This document shows positions 2,385 through 13,227 of a DNA stretch of 64,000 bases, piece by piece (position 1 is the stretch's first letter; each line of letters begins with the position of its first letter). The stretch spans positions 2,571,516 to 2,635,515 of the forward strand of contig NZ_CP133319.1 of assembly GCF_038811545.1 (NCBI RefSeq), read 5' to 3'. Origin of the DNA: Rhodoligotrophos sp. CJ14 (GTDB lineage Bacteria > Pseudomonadota > Alphaproteobacteria > Rhizobiales > Im1). The notes beneath the pieces were generated by a model that saw only the letters and a list, made by a program, of their open reading frames with translations, searched no databases and was not told the DNA's origin. A program made the position numbers and the translations under genes.

Positions 2385-2930
2385 TCAGGGTTGCTTGAGG
2401 TGGGATTTCAGGAAAGAAAGCCTTTCCTGAACTGGCGCCAGTGGAAGCTCGACCAAGCTATATCCGCACGCGCTATAGACGGCCACCATCGCCTCGAAAG
2501 TGCGGCAGGCCTCCTCGAATGACTGCTTGCGCTCGCGATCTTGCGTGAAGATCTCCGCCCAAGGCGGTGCGATGAATACTGTCGGATTGTACCGAAAATG
2601 CCGAGCGGCCTCGTGAAAATGCGATGGGATTGGCCGGTTGAGCAGGCGGAGATAGCCAATGGCGTCCGGCACACCCCGGTCGAAGATGACGGGACCCGCC
2701 ATGCTCTGCGCCATCCGATAGGAGCGCATTTCCCAGATCAGCATCGCTTCTGCGAACAGTTCAGGATCTTTCCATGGCAGAGCCGGACCATCGATCATCA
2801 TCTGGTCTTGGATGATAGCCCGCCCTGCTTCGATGGAACGTGCATAGCCCTGCGCTTGAAGCGCATCGATGAGGCTTGTCTTGCCCGAGCCGGGGCCGCC
2901 GGTAACGACGATGAACCGGTCAGCCGCCAT
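2385..2930 (-). CDS. P-loop NTPase (AAA_28-like predicted ATPase/kinase)
   Basis: The protein of about 181 residues opens with a beta strand and a textbook Walker A (VVTGGPGSGKTSL, residues 7-19), followed by a nucleoside-kinase-like fold with VIFDRGVPD in the position of a Walker B/lid region. This resembles the small AAA_28 predicted ATPases that often act as nucleotide or small-molecule kinases. ATG 2930 gives an 11-base overlap with the deacetylase gene. An in-frame start at 2981 would add 17 residues before the P-loop and is less likely. It is part of the glycosyltransferase operon. The substrate is unknown. Confidence 0.8.
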   Translation of the reverse strand: MAADRFIVVTGGPGSGKTSLIDALQAQGYARSIEAGRAIIQDQMMIDGPALPWKDPELFAEAMLIWEMRSYRMAQSMAGPVIFDRGVPDAIGYLRLLNRPIPSHFHEAARHFRYNPTVFIAPPWAEIFTQDRERKQSFEEACRTFEAMVAVYSACGYSLVELPLAPVQERLSFLKSHLKQP

Positions 2931-3672
2931 TGAAAAGGTCCCGTCCGGAATGCCAGGTGACCCGGCCCTGCATTGCCTCAATCAAACCCTCGAGAAAATT
3001 CCAGGCGCGCTCATCATGCACTGCGTGATGGGTGAGAAGGCCGACTGGGGCTTCCCGATCTGTCAGTCGCCGCGACCGCAACTCAACCGCAAGCGCTGCG
3101 CCGAGATCCCCCGGCGACCGGCCACATCGCTCTCGCCAGTCTATCAGGTCTATATGCGTATTGATTTCAACGAGGTCCGCATTCTCGAACCTGGCTTTGC
3201 CGAACGTGGAGATGGCACGATAGCCCTGCCCGCGTAAAAGCGAGATCAGATCCGAGCGCACCCGGTTCCAGGGCGGCACCAGGACCGGCAGCATTCGGTC
3301 GGGGAAGGCATCGCCGAGCATGTCGAGCGCCCTTGCCGTATCCCTCGCCACAGCCGCAAGCGGCCGGGCCTCACCAAGCTCCGCCTTCTTCGTATCCGGC
3401 CCTTCGTGATTCTCATGGGCGAGCCCATGGACGAGCAGGTCAACCATCTCTGGCGGGTGATCGAAAATCGCGCCGCAGAGCGATGGTTCCATCTTCCCCG
3501 GCACGACCGCCAGACACAGGGGAACGCTCTGTTCGGCACAGAGCGCCATCAAATGCCGCAATTCTGGTCTGTCCCGAACGGCATCATCATCCCGGATCCA
3601 CAGGCGTGGCACCCATCCCGAGCGATCCCAGTGCTCGAGCTCGCGCAAGAGCTGTGTGAACACGTCGCTCAA
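2920..3672 (-). CDS. Polysaccharide-deacetylase-like protein (carbohydrate esterase 4 fold)
   Basis: This 250-residue protein shows the order of motifs expected of NodB-fold deacetylases: an Asp cluster WIRDDDA (about residues 25-31), a His motif HGLAHENH (about 82-89), a PPWNR loop (about 132) and a late LLTHHAVHD segment. These would supply the metal-binding Asp-His-His and catalytic residues for removing acyl groups from an amino sugar. No signal peptide is seen, so a cytoplasmic glycan intermediate is the likely substrate. The start is TTG 3672, supported by a GGAG 8 bases upstream; it overlaps the upstream glycosyltransferase stop. Confidence 0.8.
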   Translation of the reverse strand: MSDVFTQLLRELEHWDRSGWVPRLWIRDDDAVRDRPELRHLMALCAEQSVPLCLAVVPGKMEPSLCGAIFDHPPEMVDLLVHGLAHENHEGPDTKKAELGEARPLAAVARDTARALDMLGDAFPDRMLPVLVPPWNRVRSDLISLLRGQGYRAISTFGKARFENADLVEINTHIDLIDWRERCGRSPGDLGAALAVELRSRRLTDREAPVGLLTHHAVHDERAWNFLEGLIEAMQGRVTWHSGRDLFNGG

Positions 3673-4841
3673 GTGACCGGCTCCACCAGCATCTGTTTGA
3701 TGATGGCCGCCGAACGCCTCGCACCATCGAGGCTCGGCCGAGGCGTCGACAGCACATTGAGCATCAAGGCATCATCGATTGCGCGCGCAAGCCGTAATGG
3801 GGTCAGTTCGCCGGGATCTACTGCGAAAGCCAGTCCCTTCTCCTCCAGGATCTTCGCCCGCAGCGGCTGCTCGATTTCACCGCCCGCAGGCCCTCGGTAG
3901 GGCACGAGAACAGCCGGCACGCGCGCCTGCAGGATATCGACGCAAGTGTTGTAGCCGGCCTGGGAGATCGACAGCCGCGCGCGTTTGAGGAGCTCTGGGA
4001 AATCTGGACGAGCTGGTTCCACGATCACACCGGGATCATTTGCCCCCTTGATGGCAGCCAGTTCTCCGGCCGGCATATTGTGCCCGATCAGGAAACGCCA
4101 TGTCAGCCCTGCCGCCGCAGAGAGCGAACGCGCAGCAGCAGCGGCCACCAACAGCTCACGCCCTACTGCACCGCCCCCAGCCGACACGATGACCTCATTC
4201 AACCCGTCCTTGCCGCCGGACTGGCGCGAACGGCCAGCCCTCATGTAGCCGGTATATCTGATACGATCGGCAAACTCGGCAACGAGCGGCAATGAGCGTT
4301 CGACAGGCACGAGATTGGGATCGCCATGCACGAGGATCGCATCATAATCGGCGATGAGCCGGCGCACCGAGGCGATCTTTTGCGCGTTCGAGGGAGGCTG
4401 TAAAATGTCCCGAACCGAGCAAACGATCTTCGGCCGCAAGTCCCGCCCTTCAGCGGTTGCGAGTACGAGCAGCCCGTCTAGCTCGTCCGCAAAGCGGCGC
4501 CGCCCAAAGGGGTAAAGCTCCGTGATGATCATCGCGGGTCTGAGCACGCGATAGAGGTTGAGCAGCGCTTCTGCGCGACGGCGGAAGAGATCCTCCCCCG
4601 CCTCGCGTCCCGCTTCGTCGATCAGATTGGTATAGCCGTTATCGCCGCTGCGGATTGCGGGCAGCTGCTTCAGCACCACACCTTTCGGTACGGGCGCCGG
4701 AACTGGCACGCCGCCCGAGGCAACCACCGGACGAAGGCCTGCCTGGGCCAGCGCCCCGGCCAGAACCATGGCCCGTTGATAGTGACCGATGCCGAGCACA
4801 TGGGTCACCCAGATCAGGATCGGGCGCTCTTCGGCCTTCAC
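3669..4841 (-). CDS. Glycosyltransferase, MurG-like/COG4671 type (GT-B fold)
   Basis: This 390-residue GT-B protein has an N-terminal GIGHYQRAMVLAGAL motif (Gly-His loop typical of MurG-like and COG4671 predicted glycosyltransferases). Its C-terminal donor-site segment is SQAGYNTCVDILQARVPAVL followed by an acidic EIEQ. It is paralogous to the 434-residue enzyme at 7178-8482. It probably moves a nucleotide-activated sugar onto a glycan or lipid acceptor. The start is GTG 4841 with GGGAG upstream, overlapping the stop of the preceding GT4 gene. Sugar and acceptor cannot be read from sequence. Confidence 0.85.
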   Translation of the reverse strand: MKAEERPILIWVTHVLGIGHYQRAMVLAGALAQAGLRPVVASGGVPVPAPVPKGVVLKQLPAIRSGDNGYTNLIDEAGREAGEDLFRRRAEALLNLYRVLRPAMIITELYPFGRRRFADELDGLLVLATAEGRDLRPKIVCSVRDILQPPSNAQKIASVRRLIADYDAILVHGDPNLVPVERSLPLVAEFADRIRYTGYMRAGRSRQSGGKDGLNEVIVSAGGGAVGRELLVAAAAARSLSAAAGLTWRFLIGHNMPAGELAAIKGANDPGVIVEPARPDFPELLKRARLSISQAGYNTCVDILQARVPAVLVPYRGPAGGEIEQPLRAKILEEKGLAFAVDPGELTPLRLARAIDDALMLNVLSTPRPSLDGARRSAAIIKQMLVEPVT

Positions 4842-5917
4842 GTCAATGCTCCCGCGACGATCTCGACCGCATGCTGCAACGTGCGGCTGCCCCGCACGAA
4901 CTCTTCGGCCGCAGCTCCCATCTGCTCGCGTCTTTCCCGGTTGACGATCAGCTCGGTGATCATTCTCGCATAGTCATCTGCATCGCATGGCGCACCCAGC
5001 ATGCCCGTAACCCCGTCAACCACCACGGCGGGCACCCCGCGAATGCGCTGGGCCACAACCGGCAGCCCCATGGCCTGCGCTTCCAGATAGGCCAGCCCAT
5101 AGGCCTCCCCGCATCCGGGCCAGGCATAAAGGTCCGCATTTGAGTAAACCTCTGCCATCTGCTCAACGGGCAACTCGCCTGTGAATGTAACGCGATCGCC
5201 GAGAAACCCAAGCATCGTCTCGACCACTTTGCGCTCCGGCCCGTCACCCACGATCACCAGCGAGAAAGGCAGTTCCTTGATCAAAAACAGGGCTTTTGCG
5301 AGCATACGGTAACTGGCGAGCTTATCGCCTGCCCGCATCATTGCCACTGAGAGAAGCCGCGGGACGGCATTGGCCATGCGGGGTACTGCTGGCCGCGGCA
5401 AATGCGTGGTGTCGATGAAGGGCGGGAGATCAACGAGCGATCCGCAACGCGCCACCGGCGCGATGCCCTCGCGATCGCCCGCCGTGAAGCAGAGGTTCAC
5501 CTTGGCCAGTTCGAGGCCCCTCCGAACTTGCGCCTGAGCCTCGGCGAATGGTCCTTGCTCCCGCTTGCGGGCATAAGAGGCTTCGCTGGTCACATAGGGA
5601 ATGCCGAGGGCCCCGGCGATCCTCACCCCCAACCAGTCGGGCGCCTTGTAATAGGGATGATAGGTGAACCACAGGTCGGGTCGGCCATTACGCTCGAACT
5701 GAGCGAGCAGCTCTTCGGCAATGCGTTCACCCTCTTGCCGCACGCGCCGTTGGGCGTCGGCCTCGCCTGTCGGCTCGAAGCTCGAGAAGCGGCTCGCCAG
5801 AGAAACCTCATGACCCGCAGCCTTGAGCACGCTCATCAGCTGCCGTGCCATCTGCCGGTCGCCCGAGGGCACGGAATGCTCCGGATGCTTAAGCGGAGCA
5901 TAGAATGCGATGCGCAT
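4838..5917 (-). CDS. Glycosyltransferase family 4 protein
   Basis: At 359 residues this is typical of GT4. The N-terminus MRIAFYAPLKHPEHSVPSGD holds an acceptor-side loop and SGDRQMARQL motif. The donor domain has LVIVGDGPERK and the EX7E region in EAYGLAYLEAQAMGLPVVA, the nucleotide-sugar-binding hallmark of GT4. The preceding GT4 stop (5918-5920) abuts this ATG with no gap, and the next gene overlaps by 4 bases, so the genes are probably translated from one message. It should be a retaining transferase acting at the cytoplasmic face of the membrane. Confidence 0.9.
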   Translation of the reverse strand: MRIAFYAPLKHPEHSVPSGDRQMARQLMSVLKAAGHEVSLASRFSSFEPTGEADAQRRVRQEGERIAEELLAQFERNGRPDLWFTYHPYYKAPDWLGVRIAGALGIPYVTSEASYARKREQGPFAEAQAQVRRGLELAKVNLCFTAGDREGIAPVARCGSLVDLPPFIDTTHLPRPAVPRMANAVPRLLSVAMMRAGDKLASYRMLAKALFLIKELPFSLVIVGDGPERKVVETMLGFLGDRVTFTGELPVEQMAEVYSNADLYAWPGCGEAYGLAYLEAQAMGLPVVAQRIRGVPAVVVDGVTGMLGAPCDADDYARMITELIVNRERREQMGAAAEEFVRGSRTLQHAVEIVAGALT

Positions 5918-7165
5918 CTAGGGCGTGCCGATGCCGAACCGTGCCGCCAAACTGCGAATGCATGTATCCCTTGAGAATGATGTCACCAGCCTGTCCCTTG
6001 CCGCCATTCCTAAGGAGAAGCGCAACTCCGGATCCTTGGCAAGCCGCGCAATCGCGGCCGCCAGGGCATCGGCATTGCCGGGCGGCACGAGCACGCCGGT
6101 TTTGCTATCGGTCACGAATTCGGGGATGGCCGAGATATTGGTCGACACGCAGCAGAGCGCTTGTGATGCCGCCTCCATCAGCACGTTCGGCAGACCGTCC
6201 CGATCACCTGACCCATCGATCTGGCTGGCCAGCACAAACAGATCCCCCCAGCCCAGCAGATCGATCACATCGTTTTGCGGCCGCGCACCCCGCCATTCGA
6301 TCTTATCCGAAAGGCCCAGATCGTCTGCCTGCCGCTTGAGCGCTGCCGATAACTCACCGCCCCCGATATGGACGAAACGCCAGTGCAACCCGCTCGGCAG
6401 ACGGCCCAGCGCCTCCAGCAGCACGCGATATCCCTTCTTAGGGACGGCACGGCCGACCGACACGATTCTTACGGGATTGGCGGGGTCATCGCCGCATCGC
6501 CCGCCCTCGCGCGAGGGGGGTATTGGAAAGCGGCCAAGATCGAGCCCGTGATAGCACAGAAACAGCTTCTCGGCATCGCCCTCTGGCGCCAGCGATTTGA
6601 GATGCGCGATATTATAGGCTGTACATGTGCTGCCCCAGGCCGCATCGGCGATCTTTTCCGCCTTTTCCCAGGGTTGAATTGTCCAGATATCCTTGGCATG
6701 AGCGGAAAAGCTCCAAGGCAGCCGCCGCATGATCGCTGCATAACGTGCAACCGAAGACGGTGTATGCAGAAAGTGGCTGTAGATATGCGAGATTTCCTCA
6801 GGCATTTCGCTTGCGAGCACCACCGCCTGACCAAACCGCCGGCCGCGGTTGAAATCGCGCTCTCGCCACCAATCCTTCAGAAACACCTTCAGGGCTGAGA
6901 AGAAACCCGGCAGGACCATCGACCGTATGAGTCCCCACATCACCCGAAGGGGATCATCCACGAGATATTCGGGCAGATAGTTCACCTCTGCCGTGATCTC
7001 GTCATGGATCGGGTGACGCGCATCGTCGGTCGGGTGGCGCAGTGACCAAAGCTGCAGGCGCAAGCCGAGCTGCTCGAGCGCATGCAGCTCCTGGGCAATG
7101 AAGGTTTCGGACAGGCGCGGATAACCCTTGAGCACCACTGCGATGGTGCCGTCAATCTCCGTCAT
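5918..7165 (-). CDS. Glycosyltransferase family 4 protein (colanic-acid/EPS type)
   Basis: This is a 415-residue GT4 enzyme. The N-terminus carries the KGYPRLSETFIAQELHALE motif common in exopolysaccharide glycosyltransferases. The C-terminal domain has VGRAVPKKGYRVLLEAL, then GDRDGLPNVLMEAASQA, the EX7E-type donor site. The preceding gene ends 12 bases away. It probably extends an exported glycan; the donor sugar is unknown. Confidence 0.9.
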   Translation of the reverse strand: MTEIDGTIAVVLKGYPRLSETFIAQELHALEQLGLRLQLWSLRHPTDDARHPIHDEITAEVNYLPEYLVDDPLRVMWGLIRSMVLPGFFSALKVFLKDWWRERDFNRGRRFGQAVVLASEMPEEISHIYSHFLHTPSSVARYAAIMRRLPWSFSAHAKDIWTIQPWEKAEKIADAAWGSTCTAYNIAHLKSLAPEGDAEKLFLCYHGLDLGRFPIPPSREGGRCGDDPANPVRIVSVGRAVPKKGYRVLLEALGRLPSGLHWRFVHIGGGELSAALKRQADDLGLSDKIEWRGARPQNDVIDLLGWGDLFVLASQIDGSGDRDGLPNVLMEAASQALCCVSTNISAIPEFVTDSKTGVLVPPGNADALAAAIARLAKDPELRFSLGMAARDRLVTSFSRDTCIRSLAARFGIGTP

Positions 7166-7177
7166 GGACCCGGCCCG

Positions 7178-8482
7178 CTACCCAGCAGCGCTAAGCCGCT
7201 GCAGTCCGTCGCCGGCCGTGTCGGGATTGGATCCAGAACCGCAGAACGGACCGTCTGAACCTCGAACAGAATCGCCATACCGTCCATTGATCCAGGGGGT
7301 TACCTGAGCATTCACGCTCTCCAGCCCTGCCATGAGGTCGGGCAGCATGCGGGCCGATGGCGGGGGCTGGTCCGCCAGCGCACCGAGAGCCTCGGCCATG
7401 GCATCAATATCGGCCACATAGTTTCCCACTGAATCGGTCCCCAGCAGCATGCGTGCGAGCCCCAATGCCTCCGCGCGGCTTGCCCTGATCAGCTGCTCCT
7501 GGCGCGGATGCGTGCGCGGCACGATCAATGCCGGCTTGTCATAGGTGAGCACCTCGCAAAAGGTATTGTACCCGCCCATGCAGACAACCGCTCGGGCGCG
7601 CTGGACCAGATGCTCGACCTGATTGTGGAAGACCATCACCTCCACATCCCGCAGCTTTTCGGCACGCTCATGGAAGGCCTCGCGCTGCTCCAATGGCATA
7701 AACGGCCCAAGCACGATCAGCGCCGGCCAAGGCAGATCGCGCCTGGCTTCGTAGGTTTGCAGGATCCAGTCGACCAGCTCTGCCCCATCGCCACCGCCGC
7801 CGGTCATCACCAGGAGAAAGTCTTGCTCGGTAATCGATGGCCAATGGTGATTGGCGGCCGTCTTGGCCAGGGCCCGTGGCAGATAACCGGTATAGACGAT
7901 TTTCTCGCGAACCGACTCGCTCACCTTCAGCCCGGTGAGCGGCTCATAGAGTGCGCGATGTCCATAGACCCAAATCTCGTCATAGGTGGCCTCGATCGTC
8001 TGCATCGCCCGCTTACGTCGCCATTCCTTGCGCAGAACCTTGGGCTCGTCGAGAACATCCCGCAAGCCCAGGACGATCCGTGCTCCGCGCGTCTTGAGGA
8101 GATCGAGCGCTCCGGCGAACTCTCCATGCAATCCGCTCGGTTCCTTGTCGACGATGACCAGATCGGGGTCGAAGACCTCCGCCGTTCGCTCGATGATCGC
8201 GCGCCGCAAACCGATCGTCTCGTTGATATCGATATGCAGGTTGAGAGCGGTGTAATTGCCATTGCGCAGCTTGATCACGCCCGGCACCCGGACGAAATCG
8301 ACCCTGGAGCGAAAATCAAACGCGCCGATGATGGGCGAGCCGGTCACGATCAGAGCGGAAAGCCTCTTATGGCGCTCGACGAGGCTATGGGCGATGGTCA
8401 TCGATCGCCTGAGATGACCGAGACCAAAGGTGTCGTGGCTATATAGCAAGATCTTGGCGCCGTCGCGCCTGCCGCGAGCCAT
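7178..8482 (-). CDS. Glycosyltransferase, COG4671/MurG-like; first gene of the operon
   Basis: This 434-residue GT-B protein has the SHDTFGLGHLRRSMTIAHSL N-terminal Gly-His-Leu-Arg-Arg loop and the donor-site signature VCMGGYNTFCEVLTYDKPAL followed by PRTHPRQEQ. It matches the COG4671 predicted glycosyltransferases and is a paralogue of the gene at 3669-4841. It is the most upstream gene of a minus-strand operon reaching at least to base 1. Its promoter should lie in 8483-8840, shared with the divergent radical SAM gene. The C-terminal 40 residues look poorly conserved. Confidence 0.88.
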   Translation of the reverse strand: MARGRRDGAKILLYSHDTFGLGHLRRSMTIAHSLVERHKRLSALIVTGSPIIGAFDFRSRVDFVRVPGVIKLRNGNYTALNLHIDINETIGLRRAIIERTAEVFDPDLVIVDKEPSGLHGEFAGALDLLKTRGARIVLGLRDVLDEPKVLRKEWRRKRAMQTIEATYDEIWVYGHRALYEPLTGLKVSESVREKIVYTGYLPRALAKTAANHHWPSITEQDFLLVMTGGGGDGAELVDWILQTYEARRDLPWPALIVLGPFMPLEQREAFHERAEKLRDVEVMVFHNQVEHLVQRARAVVCMGGYNTFCEVLTYDKPALIVPRTHPRQEQLIRASRAEALGLARMLLGTDSVGNYVADIDAMAEALGALADQPPPSARMLPDLMAGLESVNAQVTPWINGRYGDSVRGSDGPFCGSGSNPDTAGDGLQRLSAAG

Positions 8483-8840
8483 TCTCCGGTCCCCTCATCC
8501 GCTATTCCGGATCGTTCCCGCATCACCCACGGCGAGGATCCGCTGTCGCCCAAGCATCATCCCTAGCACGAGACTGCCATATCTGAGAACCGGCATTTGG
8601 CGCGAACTTGGTAACGACAAGATGGCGTTTCCTTGACACAAGCCTGCTCGACAGTGCTCACGATGCGGTGCATTGTTTCTCGGCATTTCGTTGATTAGAT
8701 CGGCTTTGAGAATTGAGCTTCTATGCTGGACAGTCGGCCGACTTTTCGAGCGCTCGTCGGAGTGCCTGAGGTGTTCGGCTGAGACCGGTGAAGCGCATGC
8801 GCAACAGTTGAGCAGTCACCGCTGACATTAAGGATCGCGA
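8483..8840. promoter_or_regulatory. Divergent intergenic control region between glycosyltransferase and radical SAM operons
   Basis: This gap of 358 bases holds no convincing gene. It must contain the promoters of both divergent operons. A perfect TTGACA lies at 8633-8638 on the plus strand, but no good -10 box is found 16-18 bases after it. AAGGA precedes the radical SAM ATG at normal distance. Individual promoters cannot be assigned with confidence. Confidence 0.45.
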
Positions 8841-9848
8841 ATGGCCACCAGCCACACCCTTGAGGCTCATCTTCCCCTGAAGGCGCGGGTTTCGCGCCTT
8901 TTCGCGCATATGCTGCCCCTATCTTACTTCAAGAAGCCGCCGACCATCATCGTGGTCGACGTCACCAATTCCTGCAATCTGCGCTGCCCCGTTTGCCCCG
9001 TCACCATCGCGATGACGCGCAAACGTGGGCTTATGAAGCTCGATCTGTTCAAAGCGATCGTCGATGACTTCAAGAAGATGAAGGAAAAGCCGGCGATGTA
9101 TTTCAACTTCTCCGGCGAGCCGACACTTAATCCCGCATTGCCCGATTTTGTTGCTTATGCGCACCAGAATGGCCACGACACCTTCCTTTCGACCAATGCG
9201 ACCAAGCTTTCCCAAGACATGGCCGAGCGCCTGATCACCGCCGGCCTTGGGCGCGTCTATCTGTGCATGGATGGCTTTTCCAAGGAGGCGCAGGAAAGCT
9301 ATCGGGTGAACTCCAGCTTCGAGGAGGTGAAGGCGAATATCGAGATGTTCTTGTCCACGCGGCGCAAGCTTAAGGTCAAGAATCCCAAATGCGTTTTGCA
9401 AACCCTGCTGACCGGCTATTCCGAACATCAAATGGAGGATATCCGCAGCTGGGCCGAAGACATTGGCTTTGATCAGATTCGCTTCAAGACGTTCAGCATC
9501 GGCTCCTATACGACTGAACAGGAGAAGCAGGAATTCAGCCGCTTTCTTCCTACCCGTGAAGACCTTCGGCGCCATCCGACCGGAATACAGCGCGCCACCT
9601 GTACCGCCCCGCTCCATCAGACCGTCGTCTTCTGGAATGGCGATCTAGGTCTTTGCTGCATTGATTATGACCAGATGGTCCAGTTGCCCAATATTGGCGA
9701 GGGCGGTTTCCTCAGGGCTTATTTATCGGACGAGGCAGCCCGTGCACGCAGGAAGGGATACTTGAAGCAATTCGATATTTGTAAAGGATGTTCTTATTCG
9801 AATGCAGAAAATATGGGTATGAAGATTGACCTGAGACAGCCGATATGA
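8841..9848 (+). CDS. Radical SAM protein with SPASM-like Cys-rich C-terminus
   Basis: The 335-residue protein has the radical SAM cluster motif CNLRCPVC (Cys 45, 49, 52; CxxxCxxC) after strand VVDVTN, and the GEPT SAM-binding motif in FNFSGEPTLNP. The C-terminal third carries further cysteines (ATCTAP, LGLCCID, ICKGC), as in SPASM or twitch domains that hold auxiliary Fe-S clusters. Such proteins modify peptides, sugars or other small molecules by radical chemistry; the substrate here is not evident. AAGGA precedes the ATG. It leads a plus-strand operon with the ABC-like and cNMP-binding genes and is divergent from the glycosyltransferases, which suggests a shared pathway. Confidence 0.88.
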   Translation: MATSHTLEAHLPLKARVSRLFAHMLPLSYFKKPPTIIVVDVTNSCNLRCPVCPVTIAMTRKRGLMKLDLFKAIVDDFKKMKEKPAMYFNFSGEPTLNPALPDFVAYAHQNGHDTFLSTNATKLSQDMAERLITAGLGRVYLCMDGFSKEAQESYRVNSSFEEVKANIEMFLSTRRKLKVKNPKCVLQTLLTGYSEHQMEDIRSWAEDIGFDQIRFKTFSIGSYTTEQEKQEFSRFLPTREDLRRHPTGIQRATCTAPLHQTVVFWNGDLGLCCIDYDQMVQLPNIGEGGFLRAYLSDEAARARRKGYLKQFDICKGCSYSNAENMGMKIDLRQPI

Positions 9849-9913
9849 TGAGCCTGTGAGGCTACTCTGAGTGCGGATTGTGGGGGACGCTCCGGAGCCA
9901 TCATATTACTGAC

Positions 9914-10012
9914 ATGGCCGCCGGCCCGACTGGCCGTATAATGTTTGTGGCACTGTTCGAGCGCGAGCTCCTGTGCGGCGCAAGCTGCACTGGAGATGCG
10001 CTTCGGGATTAA
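9914..10012 (+). CDS. Possible small peptide ORF, 32 codons, tail-to-head with the ABC-like gene
   Basis: An ATG at 9914 opens a 32-codon frame ending in TAA at 10010-10012, directly in front of the GTG (10013) and ATG (10016) of the next gene. The peptide is hydrophobic in its middle and holds a CGASC motif near the C-terminus. Its Shine-Dalgarno is weak (GGAG at an excessive distance). A TATAAT string at 9937-9942 inside it could instead be part of a promoter. It may be a leader ORF for translational coupling, a radical SAM substrate, or chance. Confidence 0.25.
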   Translation: MAAGPTGRIMFVALFERELLCGASCTGDALRD

Positions 10013-10015
10013 GTG

Positions 10016-12739
10016 ATGGAAAGCAATTTATTTTGGTATATTTGGAATCACACCAAGAAACAGCAGATCTGGATCCTGGCGATCATTCTGCTGTCGATGC
10101 CTGTCTATTTCGTTTCGCTCGACCTTCCCAAGCAGATCGTCAATGGCCCGATCACGGGCGAGGGCTTTGAAGCCGCAAACGCGACAGCCCGGTTTCTGAG
10201 GCTCGCCTTTGGCCTGCCGCAGTTTCTCGGTGGCGGCGAAGTTGAGCTCTTTTCCGGCTTCGAGCTCAACAGGATGGGCATGCTCATTGCCCTCTCGCTG
10301 ACCTTCCTCGCGCTGGTCTGCATCAACGGCGCGTTCAAATTCTACATCAACACATATAAAGGCCGCCTCGGCGAGCGGATGTTGCGTCGGCTCCGCTATG
10401 ACCTCGTCGACCGGGTGATGCGCTTCCCCCTCAGCCATTTCCGCCGGATCAAGGCGCCGGAAGTGGCCACTATGATCAAGGACGAGGTGGAGCCGATGGG
10501 AGGCTTCATCGGCGATGCATTCGTCCAGCCGGTCTTTCTCGGTGGGCAGGCCTTGACCGCGCTTGCCTTCATCCTGGCGCAGAATTTCTGGCTTGGCATG
10601 ATCGCCTTTGCTGTTGTGGCAGTACAGGCTTACATCATCCCACGCCTGAGGCGCCGGCTGCTGGTTCTGTCCAAGCAGCGCCAGATCACTGCTCGGGCTT
10701 TGGCCGGCCGCGTCGGCGAAATTGTGGAGGGGGTCGCCGACGTTCACCTCAATGACGCGTCGAACCGCGAGCGGGCAGACATCTCCAACCGGCTCGGTGA
10801 AATCTTCTTCATCCGCTACGAGCTCTATCAGAGGAAGTTTGCGGTCAAATGGCTGAATAACTTTCTCGCGCAGCTCACACCCTTCATGTTCTACCTGATC
10901 GGTGGCTATTTCGCCTTGCGCGGCTCATTGGATATTGGCCAGCTGGTTGCGGTGATCGGCGCGTATAAGGATCTCCCGACACCCATCAAGGAACTGATCG
11001 ACTGGGATCAGCAGCGCCTTGATGTACAGGTGAAGTACAATCAGGTGATCGAGCAGTTCTGTCCGGACAATATGCTCGATCCCAAGCTGCAGCTCCCGCC
11101 CGAGGGGCCCATTCCCCATATCGAGACCGCTCTGGCCTTGGCGAGTGTGAGCGTCATCGACGAGACCGGCGCGCGGTTGCTCGAGTCCACCTCCCTCACC
11201 CTCCAGCCGCAGGAGCGCGTCGCTGCCATCGGGCCGATCAATAGCGGCGCCGAAACCGTGGCAGAGGTGTTTGCCCGGTTGACGCCGCCGACCAGCGGTC
11301 GGGCGACGATCGATGGCAAGCCGCTCGAGGAGCTGCCTGAGGCCTTCACGGGGCGTCGCATCGGTTACGTGGGTCCCGATGCTTATTTCCCCCATGCGTC
11401 TATCCGGGAAGTCCTCCTTTACGGCATATGCCATGTGCCGCTCCGCGGACAGCCCAAGACGGCAGAGACGAGGGTCCCGCCGGATATACTTGCGGCCGAG
11501 GCCCTTGCCTCCGGCAACACCACCATGGATGTGAATGCCGACTGGGTCGATTACGAGAGTGCCGGTCTCACCGGGCCGGAGGCGCTCACGCCCCGGTTCA
11601 TGGAAGTGCTGATGATGGTCGATCTGCACGCGGACATGTTCGATCTGGGCCTGCGGTCGACCATCGATCCCCAAACCTCGCCGGAGATCATGAGCCAGGC
11701 ACTGGAGGCACGCTCCCATCTGCGCCGCATGCTGTCGGAGCCTCCTCTGAACCAGCTGGTCGAGATATTCGATCCCGACCGCTATAACTTTCAGGCGACC
11801 GTTGCCGAGAACCTGCTGTTCGGTACGGCCCTCGACGATACCTTCGCGATCCGAAATCTGCCGACCAACGCCTATATGCACGAGGTCCTGCAGGACCAGG
11901 CGCTTGAGGACAATCTCGTCGAGATGGGCCGCGAGATCGCCGAAACAGTCACCGATCTGTTTGCAGGGCTGGCCCCTGATCATCCCTTCTTCGAGCAGCT
12001 CAGCCTGATGACTGCCGAGGAAATTCCAGAATATAAGGCGATCTTGGCCCGGCTCAGTTCCGGCGGCGCCACGGCCAGAGATGACCGGGCGATGCTGCTC
12101 AAGCTCGCGCTGGGCTATATCGAGCCGCGCCATCGCTTGGGCCTGCTTGATGATGCTCTCGCGAGGCGCCTGGTGGAGGCGCGCAAAGCCTTCCGTGCGG
12201 GCTTGCCGAGCGATCTCGCCGGGTCTGTCGCGTTCTATGAGCCTGACAAATACAACATCGCCTCGAACCTGCTCGACAATGTGCTGTTCGGTCGTATCGC
12301 ATACGGCATAGCCGATGGGCCACGCCGTGTGCGCGAGGCCATGCGCCGGGTCTTCGATCAACTGGGCATGGAGCATGCCATCATCGAGGCCGGGCTCAAC
12401 TTCAACGTGGGCTCGGGCGGCAAGCGGCTTTCTGCCTCGCAACGGCAGAAACTGGCACTTGCCCGTGTTCTGATGAAGCGTGTCGATTTCCTGATCGTGA
12501 ACCGCGCATTGTCAGCCTTGGATAGCCGCAACTATGCGGAAATCGTTCAGCGGGTCCTCGCCGCGGCGAAGGAAGACGGCGACAGAGGATTCGGGCTGTT
12601 CTGGGTATTGAACACGCCCGATCTCGCCCAGCTATTCGATCGTACACTTACTTTCGATCAGGGCCGGCTGGTCGCCGATAGTCTCGCTGATCGTGGCTCT
12701 GATCGCGATAGTCCTCGGCAAAGGGTCGCCGCATCATGA
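10016..12739 (+). CDS. ABC-exporter-like protein with degenerate ATPase domain and large insertion
   Basis: This 907-residue protein has an N-terminal ABC-exporter membrane domain (hydrophobic segments near residues 20-38, 88-106, 165-208 and 283-300) and then one nucleotide-binding domain lacking its catalytic residues. Walker A reads GPINSGAET (406-414, no Lys). Walker B reads FLIVNR (825-830, Asp-Glu replaced by Asn-Arg). The Q-loop Gln and H-loop His are also absent (YVGPDA; NTPD). The signature LSASQRQ (805-811) and D-loop SALD remain. About 320 residues are inserted between Q-loop and signature and contain two Q-loop-like repeats. ATG 10016 follows a GTG at 10013. It probably works as a membrane scaffold, channel or sensor rather than an ATP-driven pump. 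Confidence 0.85.
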   Translation: MESNLFWYIWNHTKKQQIWILAIILLSMPVYFVSLDLPKQIVNGPITGEGFEAANATARFLRLAFGLPQFLGGGEVELFSGFELNRMGMLIALSLTFLALVCINGAFKFYINTYKGRLGERMLRRLRYDLVDRVMRFPLSHFRRIKAPEVATMIKDEVEPMGGFIGDAFVQPVFLGGQALTALAFILAQNFWLGMIAFAVVAVQAYIIPRLRRRLLVLSKQRQITARALAGRVGEIVEGVADVHLNDASNRERADISNRLGEIFFIRYELYQRKFAVKWLNNFLAQLTPFMFYLIGGYFALRGSLDIGQLVAVIGAYKDLPTPIKELIDWDQQRLDVQVKYNQVIEQFCPDNMLDPKLQLPPEGPIPHIETALALASVSVIDETGARLLESTSLTLQPQERVAAIGPINSGAETVAEVFARLTPPTSGRATIDGKPLEELPEAFTGRRIGYVGPDAYFPHASIREVLLYGICHVPLRGQPKTAETRVPPDILAAEALASGNTTMDVNADWVDYESAGLTGPEALTPRFMEVLMMVDLHADMFDLGLRSTIDPQTSPEIMSQALEARSHLRRMLSEPPLNQLVEIFDPDRYNFQATVAENLLFGTALDDTFAIRNLPTNAYMHEVLQDQALEDNLVEMGREIAETVTDLFAGLAPDHPFFEQLSLMTAEEIPEYKAILARLSSGGATARDDRAMLLKLALGYIEPRHRLGLLDDALARRLVEARKAFRAGLPSDLAGSVAFYEPDKYNIASNLLDNVLFGRIAYGIADGPRRVREAMRRVFDQLGMEHAIIEAGLNFNVGSGGKRLSASQRQKLALARVLMKRVDFLIVNRALSALDSRNYAEIVQRVLAAAKEDGDRGFGLFWVLNTPDLAQLFDRTLTFDQGRLVADSLADRGSDRDSPRQRVAAS

Positions 12740-12762
12740 CGTCATCGGAGGAGAAGTACGGC

Positions 12763-13227
12763 ATGACTTCCCTAAAGGATGAGGTGGACGCGCTTCGGCG
12801 CATTCCTCTGTTCGCAAACGTCTCTCCTCAGAAACTCAAGCTTCTGGCCTTCACGTCCGAGCGTATGTCCTTCGAGCCCGGCCAGGAGCTTTTTCATCAG
12901 GGCGATATCGGTGATGCGGCCTATGTCATCATCGCCGGATCCGCTGAGATTCTCGTAGATACACCCGATGGCCAGCTCGCCGTCGCCGAGGTCAGCGAAA
13001 ACGACTTCATCGGCGAGATTGCCATCCTGTGCGAGGTGCCGCGGACCGCAACCGTGCGTGCCGTCAATCGCCTCGAAACGCTCAAGATCATGAAGGAGCA
13101 CTTTCTCCGCATGGTCGCTGAATTTCCGGAAATGGCCGTCGAGATCATGCGTGAGCTGGCCAATCGTCTTCATCGAACAACCATGGAGTTGACCGAAGCG
13201 CGCCAACATCGGCGCAACGGTACTTGA
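12763..13227 (+). CDS. Cyclic-nucleotide-binding-domain protein (Crp-like effector domain only)
   Basis: This protein of about 154 residues is a single cNMP-binding beta-barrel: FANVSPQKLKLLAFTSERMS helix, FEPGQELFHQGD, AYVIIAGSAEIL, then the phosphate-binding cassette FIGEIAILCEVPRTATVRAV. No DNA-binding helix-turn-helix follows, so it is probably a protein-level regulator. A strong GGAGGAG lies 9 bases before ATG 12763. An in-frame ATG at 12736 overlaps the ABC-like gene's TGA and would add 9 residues. The tight coupling suggests it gates or anchors the ATPase-dead membrane protein. Confidence 0.85.
   Translation: MTSLKDEVDALRRIPLFANVSPQKLKLLAFTSERMSFEPGQELFHQGDIGDAAYVIIAGSAEILVDTPDGQLAVAEVSENDFIGEIAILCEVPRTATVRAVNRLETLKIMKEHFLRMVAEFPEMAVEIMRELANRLHRTTMELTEARQHRRNGT

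Follow-up and report, generated by a model that had tools for sequence, protein, structure and literature searches.

Locus and Domain Architecture

The window analysed here, a stretch of 64,000 nucleotides from Rhodoligotrophos sp. CJ14 (contig NZ_CP133319.1), carries a gene for an ABC-exporter-like protein, predicted to be ATPase-dead, with a divergent glycosyltransferase cluster upstream and a gene for a cyclic-nucleotide-binding (CNB) protein directly downstream:

2920..3672, minus strand: conserved cluster protein, polysaccharide-deacetylase-like by eye (beside 51 of 101 loci; no Pfam match)
3669..4841, minus strand: GT28-C (MurG-like) glycosyltransferase (Pfam and neighbour counts)
4838..5917, minus strand: GT4 glycosyltransferase (Pfam and neighbour counts)
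5918..7165, minus strand: GT4 glycosyltransferase (Pfam and neighbour counts)
7178..8482, minus strand: GT28-C (MurG-like) glycosyltransferase, divergent from the ABC gene (PF04101; homologue of the Sinorhizobium meliloti gene counted as smb21265)
10013..12739, plus strand: putative ATPase-dead ABC-exporter-like protein (908 aa; start GTG 10013 or ATG 10016)
10013..11047, plus strand: membrane domain, residues 1-345 (Pfam ABC_membrane and model)
11123..11446, plus strand: first half of the NBD, residues 371-478 (Pfam and model)
12218..12688, plus strand: second half of the NBD, residues 736-892 (Pfam and model)
12736..13227, plus strand: Crp-like CNB protein (PF00027, 2.2e-20; its start shares 4 bases with the end of the ABC gene, at the stop codon)

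A Radical SAM/SPASM protein (8841-9848, plus strand) lies between the glycosyltransferases and the exporter and was found elsewhere only in one congener (L182), and an AAA_28 P-loop protein (2385-2981, minus strand) adjoins the glycosyltransferase cluster.

The ABC reading frame opens at GTG 10013 and reaches 12739 without an internal stop, and from the in-frame ATG at 10016 it counts 907 codons, as the original prediction had it. The exporter membrane domain claimed there is likewise borne out by Pfam, which places ABC_membrane (PF00664) at residues 91-315 (E 2.8e-15; 57.2 bits against a cut-off of 28). ABC_tran (PF00005) matches in two separate stretches, the best at 391-483 (2.4e-12 and 48 bits for the whole protein, cut-off 25). 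With an ABC_membrane domain and an ABC NBD fold, the protein belongs to the type IV fold ABC exporter superfamily, that of the MsbA-like exporters. An NCBIfam search (MsbA, CydCD, HlyB, ChvA, and others) gave no score above a curated cut-off, the top one being 130 bits against 602 (MsbA); the best alignments are MsbA-type, and since each of the 25 best exporter families scores far under its cut-off, the protein falls outside those 25. Its AlphaFold2 model (pLDDT 84, pTM 0.77) aligns to MsbA, TM287/288 and the ComA NBD; residues 368-907 cover 239 of the 239 residues of the Streptococcus mutans ComA NBD (rmsd 2.3, Z 28.4), so that in the model the NBD fold appears intact although the catalytic residues are not.

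A Degenerate ATPase Site across the Family

Sequence and homologue alignment locate the motifs of the nucleotide site as follows:

11231..11257, plus strand: degenerate Walker A GPINSGAET, residues 407-415
12428..12451, plus strand: signature-like LSASQRQK, residues 806-813
12488..12505, plus strand: degenerate Walker B FLIVNR, residues 826-831
12611..12613, plus strand: H-loop position, N867

In Walker A, Lys is replaced by Ala, Ser/Thr by Glu and the second Gly by Asn; in Walker B, Asp is replaced by Asn and Glu by Arg; P455 takes the place of the Q-loop Gln. The whole residue set of a functional ABC ATPase (Walker A Lys and Ser/Thr, Walker B Asp, catalytic Glu, Q-loop Gln, H-loop His) is thereby replaced, and LSASQRQ (806-812) and SALD (834-837) survive; the original motif calls were correct at all of these points. 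Among the ordinary exporters that this genome encodes, the four inspected all have LSGGQ together with a DE-type Walker B; the strict Walker A pattern is matched by three. The residues lost are those that hold Mg-ATP and cut it in ABC proteins, and from their replacement we infer that the window protein is without ATPase activity.

The family is widespread in Alphaproteobacteria. A protein search (E <= 1e-40) matched 132 of 385 sampled alphaproteobacterial genomes, about a third, and all four genomes of the organism's own family; 331 plasmid records match, for the most part rhizobial, and GTDB genomes hold at least 588 loci, of which a handful come from records with a beta- or gammaproteobacterial label. 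Outside the class, a wide phylum sample contained a single matching genome, which matched via the membrane domain alone. In the available portions of the literature on degenerate or cyclic-nucleotide-linked ABC exporters, we found no account of this family.

We counted ATPase hallmarks in 134 aligned homologues, the window protein included. Walker A Lys (K413) is kept in 56 and the catalytic Glu (E831) in 43, the H-loop His in 21; position 414 holds Ser/Thr in 12 and Glu/Asp in 108, and the Walker B Asp position (830) holds Asp in 16 and Asn in 102. No homologue has more than four of the seven hallmarks and 61 have none; close relatives with canonical Walker motifs, for which we searched, were not found among the 134. 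The degeneracy first described for this protein is therefore confirmed, but as a property of the whole family rather than of one member, and its recurrence argues against chance. On a tree built on residues 1-345 (membrane domain) alone, the minimum number of changes is 13 for Walker A Lys, 16 for Ser/Thr, 10 for Walker B Asp, 16 for the catalytic Glu, and 12 for the H-loop His. The idea that Ser/Thr of Walker A and Asp of Walker B were lost together, as a "charge swap", gained no support from the independent-pairs test, which had too few pairs and a median p of 1.

At least 20 of the 134 homologues read K-E/D-N-E and, because such relatives keep Walker A Lys and the catalytic Glu, nucleotide binding may persist outside the window lineage. 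Positions 414 (Glu/Asp) and 830 (Asn) are fairly conserved despite the drift of the hallmarks, and the site could therefore have taken on a new function. It could be argued from these residues that the Glu/Asp and the Asn form a replacement set for altered nucleotide binding, perhaps with slow cutting. Such a site is improbable, given that the window lineage has also exchanged Lys for Ala and the catalytic Glu for Arg, and that the hallmarks change repeatedly on the tree, down to none at all in the 61 homologues mentioned.

Residues 81-345 of the membrane domain are the best conserved part of the protein (mean 0.715, against 0.47-0.58 elsewhere), with 55 of 265 columns at or above 95%. Among four members of the organism's own family, Nei-Gojobori dN/dS is 0.09-0.22 for the whole protein, 0.05-0.16 for the membrane domain, and 0.05-0.30 for the second half of the NBD, rough values in that dS is near or past saturation. 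The total loss of catalytic motifs in the window copy might by itself point to a decaying pseudogene or an annotation artefact. Since relatives keep the frame open, dN/dS lies far below 1, there are invariant columns away from the motifs, and the exporter-CNB gene pair is conserved, we reject that explanation, in agreement with the original prediction, and put its chances at practically nil.

Two divergent groups border the family. A sister subfamily (L061, 2570-5119, plus strand; L176, 7701-10298, minus strand) has a strongly diverged membrane domain and the same repeat-expanded dead NBD, Walker A Lys being absent. Other relatives, of about 400-447 aa, consist of the membrane domain without an NBD (L170, 8537-9877, and L171, 7543-8781, minus strand; L172, 8001-9197, L173, 7531-8727, and L174, 6868-8091, plus strand) and lie near genes copper- or metal-related in appearance, by eye; one of these relatives has a weak SbmA_BacA Pfam match (0.003, below the cut-off). 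In part of the wider family, the NBD is therefore dispensable.

A Split, Repeat-Expanded NBD

The NBD is further set apart by a feature absent from the original prediction: it is split by an extra stretch of about 257 residues, placed between Q-loop and signature, and holds repeats of its own Q-loop region:

11360..11446, plus strand: Q-loop segment copy 1, residues 450-478, at the canonical Q-loop position with P455 (homologue alignment and profiles)
11447..12217, plus strand: NBD insertion, residues 479-735, mostly helical (Pfam, models, profile comparison)
11756..11830, plus strand: Q-loop-like segment copy 2, residues 582-606, LVEIFDPDRYNFQATVAENLLFG (N600 and F603 invariant)
12224..12298, plus strand: Q-loop-like segment copy 3, residues 738-762, SVAFYEPDKYNIASNLLDNVLFG (N756 and G760 invariant)

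In profile-profile comparison, segments 440-582, 574-738 and 730-835 match mutually (E 4e-13, 3e-7 and 2e-6; scores 77, 44 and 42); the maximum over 75 column-shuffled comparisons is 27, and elsewhere in the protein no score exceeds 17, barring one control that shares 11 residues with a segment. Each copy runs from a beta strand through a loop, a DNLLYG-type helix and a second strand to helices with a terminal GL or MG motif, and represents the Q-loop together with the first part of the helical subdomain. An AR..LR helix further on is common to copies 1 and 2 (E 3e-14) and does not detectably resemble the true signature helix; what follows in these two gives no detectable match to copy 3, where the true signature/Walker B region lies (scores 18.5 and 13), and triplication is therefore claimed for the Q-loop/helical part only. 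Folded alone, the insert yields a confident model (pLDDT 91), for which Foldseek returned no match at E <= 0.001; a PDB sequence search using the insert returned nothing significant. The top three VIA-align matches of the insert model are all the corresponding helical regions of ABC NBDs (CFTR 494-565, ComA 608-685, and AtAtm3; Z 4.4-4.7), weak on their own and supportive only, in agreement with the repeat.

A CNB Partner, Cyclases and Other Recurrent Neighbours

Neighbourhoods were compared at 101 loci, using as queries proteins of the window, of S. meliloti and of cluster representatives, such that unrelated neighbours are undercounted; short contigs depress all neighbour frequencies. As the 101 loci are phylogenetically clustered, many from Mesorhizobium, counts are also given for a nonredundant set of 70, from which exporters more than 80% alike were removed. 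A CNB homologue adjoins the exporter at 98 of the 101 loci and 68 of the 70, and in L057, L060/L175 and L059/L161/L162/L163, by handle three taxonomic families, it is fused to the exporter C-terminus. The association is thus genetic, resting on gene adjacency and fusions. The CNB protein of the window shows no DNA-binding domain above the Pfam cut-off. In the aligned CNB homologues the ligand (phosphate-binding) motif is intact as judged by sequence: G93 is found in 152 of 152, E94 in 135 with Asp in 16 more (either acid in 151 of 152), and R103 in 151 of 152.

Class III cyclases, sought with four different queries, are enriched near the exporter, occurring at 51 of the 101 loci and 28 of the 70. 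Some 1.6 would be expected in the same 1.18 Mb from the background of 1.34 per Mb (109 class III cyclases in about 81 Mb, genome-wide, of 21 relatives), and some 4.6 at the density that we take to hold for S. meliloti. They belong to several distinct families. In the sister genus (L180) exporter, CNB gene and a cyclase frame with a membrane part stand in a row; in the window no cyclase adjoins the exporter, and seven class III cyclases lie elsewhere in the genome. N-terminal membrane parts occur in the cyclases at L094 (15621-17378, plus strand) and L180 (10725-12515, plus strand), the former with a 2Fe-2S ferredoxin domain (Pfam) as well, a hint that the second messenger is under redox control. 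An MBL-fold hydrolase (L062, 706-1533, minus strand, and homologues), a candidate cyclic-nucleotide phosphodiesterase, is present at 42-43 of the 101 loci and 19 of the 70, mostly directly downstream of the CNB gene. DUF3095 (PF11294; L078, 17731-18876, plus strand, and homologues), a family of unknown function, lies near the CNB gene and cyclases at 32 of the 101 loci and 10 of the 70.

A CNB protein next to cyclases also calls to mind a Pycsar-like anti-phage effector, in which the cyclase product binds the CNB protein and opens the membrane protein, and both components do match PADLOC Pycsar models. Those matches are to generic CNB and class III cyclase domains, and a gene present in about a third of the alphaproteobacterial genomes sampled, whose glycosyltransferase neighbours are conserved, is unlike a mobile defence island; we hold a defence role to be highly improbable.

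No ABC exporter gene recurs beside the locus, where the recurring ABC genes resemble an oligopeptide-importer set, and family searches of the window neighbours (2385-13227) revealed no second exporter. This bears on the possibility that the protein is half of a heterodimer, with another cellular ABC exporter supplying the active ATP site, as in TM287/288 or TAP. Exporters with one degenerate site (TM287/288, TAP, MRP1, BmrCD) have substituted catalytic residues, as has the window protein, and are well known (review PMC7756269, in its available part); moreover, the genome encodes several canonical exporters. However, in TM287/288-type heterodimers one of the two sites is active, whereas no active partner is apparent here, and this arrangement seems quite improbable. 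Dimerization with an active partner, one of the roles originally put forward, thus finds no support; the other roles named then, channel, scaffold or receptor, look alike in sequence.

The Glycosyltransferase Cluster and Its S. meliloti Counterpart

The two GT4 and two GT28-C genes (3669-8482) recur at 40-45 of the 70 nonredundant loci (about 60%); about 37% of these loci are without the cluster nearby, some contigs being short. The S. meliloti genes are arranged as glycosyltransferases, methyltransferase, pseudo-ABC, CNB, FkbM, LacI. Two genes serve as anchors: smb21265, a glycosyltransferase gene which the available part of PMC10128002 gives as required for phazolicin resistance, and SM_b21272, a LacI-family regulator (PMC11387232). 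Counting genes between them, the pseudo-ABC gene would be SM_b21269 and the CNB gene SM_b21270. By position the locus falls within smb21252-smb21271, the cluster for the phazolicin-protecting polysaccharide (PPP), as delimited in the available parts of PMC10128002 and PMC11387232. PPP is an uncharacterised surface polysaccharide that, according to the same part of PMC10128002, requires nine genes of the interval from smb21252 to smb21271; Myxococcus predation induces seven of the nine (PMC10315480). The window and the PPP cluster share homologous glycosyltransferases beside pseudo-ABC and CNB genes in one region (PMC10128002, available part), and differ in that the window has the radical-SAM gene and no adjacent cyclase. 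In its accessible text, PMC10128002 does not mention the lost motifs of the ABC protein or the CNB gene.

A Model for Cyclic-Nucleotide Control

Taken together, the conserved CNB partner, the neighbouring cyclases and the clustered glycosyltransferase genes lead us to propose a second-messenger-controlled step in polysaccharide export. In our estimate there is about an even chance that the protein transports or gates a surface polysaccharide under cyclic-nucleotide control and independently of ATP. A fuller version, in which the family swapped ATP power for second-messenger control and the dead, repeat-enlarged NBD receives a CNB subunit that gates an ATP-independent polysaccharide transporter, is tentative and should be taken as possible rather than probable. 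Under this model a membrane protein of the type IV ABC-exporter fold, probably a homodimer, would no longer be driven by ATP hydrolysis; its NBD would keep the fold and would have grown into a larger docking module as its Q-loop/helical segment was duplicated in tandem. The Crp-like CNB protein, encoded by an overlapping gene or fused in some lineages, would bind this module. A class III cyclase, adjacent at many loci including that of the sister genus, would make cAMP or cGMP for the CNB protein to bind, whereupon the cytoplasmic module might be reshaped and the membrane domain opened, closed or permitted. The latter would move or gate an envelope glycan that the adjacent glycosyltransferases synthesise, presumably a PPP-type polysaccharide in S. 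meliloti. If there is transport, the proton gradient could power it, as it does SbmA, or else a gradient of the polymer.

Some known systems make parts of this model plausible. SbmA/BacA (SLiPT) proteins are proton-driven peptide transporters whose ABC-exporter-type membrane domain, a relative of those of ABC proteins, is not ATP-driven (PMC13316013), and MsbA without its NBD is described as active in drug transport but cannot replace MsbA in growth (PMC8660845). SLiPTs have neither NBD nor coupling helices, whereas the window protein has kept and enlarged its NBD; given that its model seems to retain short cytoplasmic coupling helices, which SbmA lacks, an SbmA-type mechanism is not directly indicated. 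From MsbA-like exporters, on the other hand, the family differs by the loss of catalytic residues, the NBD split by about 257 repeat-holding residues, and the constant CNB partner.

The most serious competitor is a receptor or regulator that moves no substrate: an envelope signal or lipid-linked glycan would be sensed by the membrane domain and relayed by the NBD-CNB complex. There are precedents: SUR (ABCC8/9) puts the ABC-exporter fold to regulatory use, binding MgADP/ATP and partnering with a K+ channel in the control of KATP channels, and FtsEX signals. SUR chains are among the structural matches of our model, and an enlarged, repeat-built NBD with lost catalytic residues, a constant CNB partner and several distinct cyclase families would suit a relay. 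Yet conservation is concentrated in the membrane domain, relatives exist that have this domain alone, and neither channel nor kinase recurs in the neighbourhoods as an output partner; nor, as compared with SUR, is MgADP/ATP binding or a K+ channel partner indicated. We therefore regard a purely sensory role as rather unlikely.

On present evidence, the annotation of the S. meliloti copy as "ABC transporter ATP-binding protein" is misleading. The existence of this orthologue makes the proposed cyclic-nucleotide-controlled transporter or gate testable in a common laboratory strain via an existing phenotype, phazolicin sensitivity. If the proposal is true, this would be an ABC exporter whose membrane-domain state is set by a cyclic nucleotide, not by ATP hydrolysis, and second-messenger signalling in rhizobia would be tied to envelope polysaccharide at the level of a protein complex.
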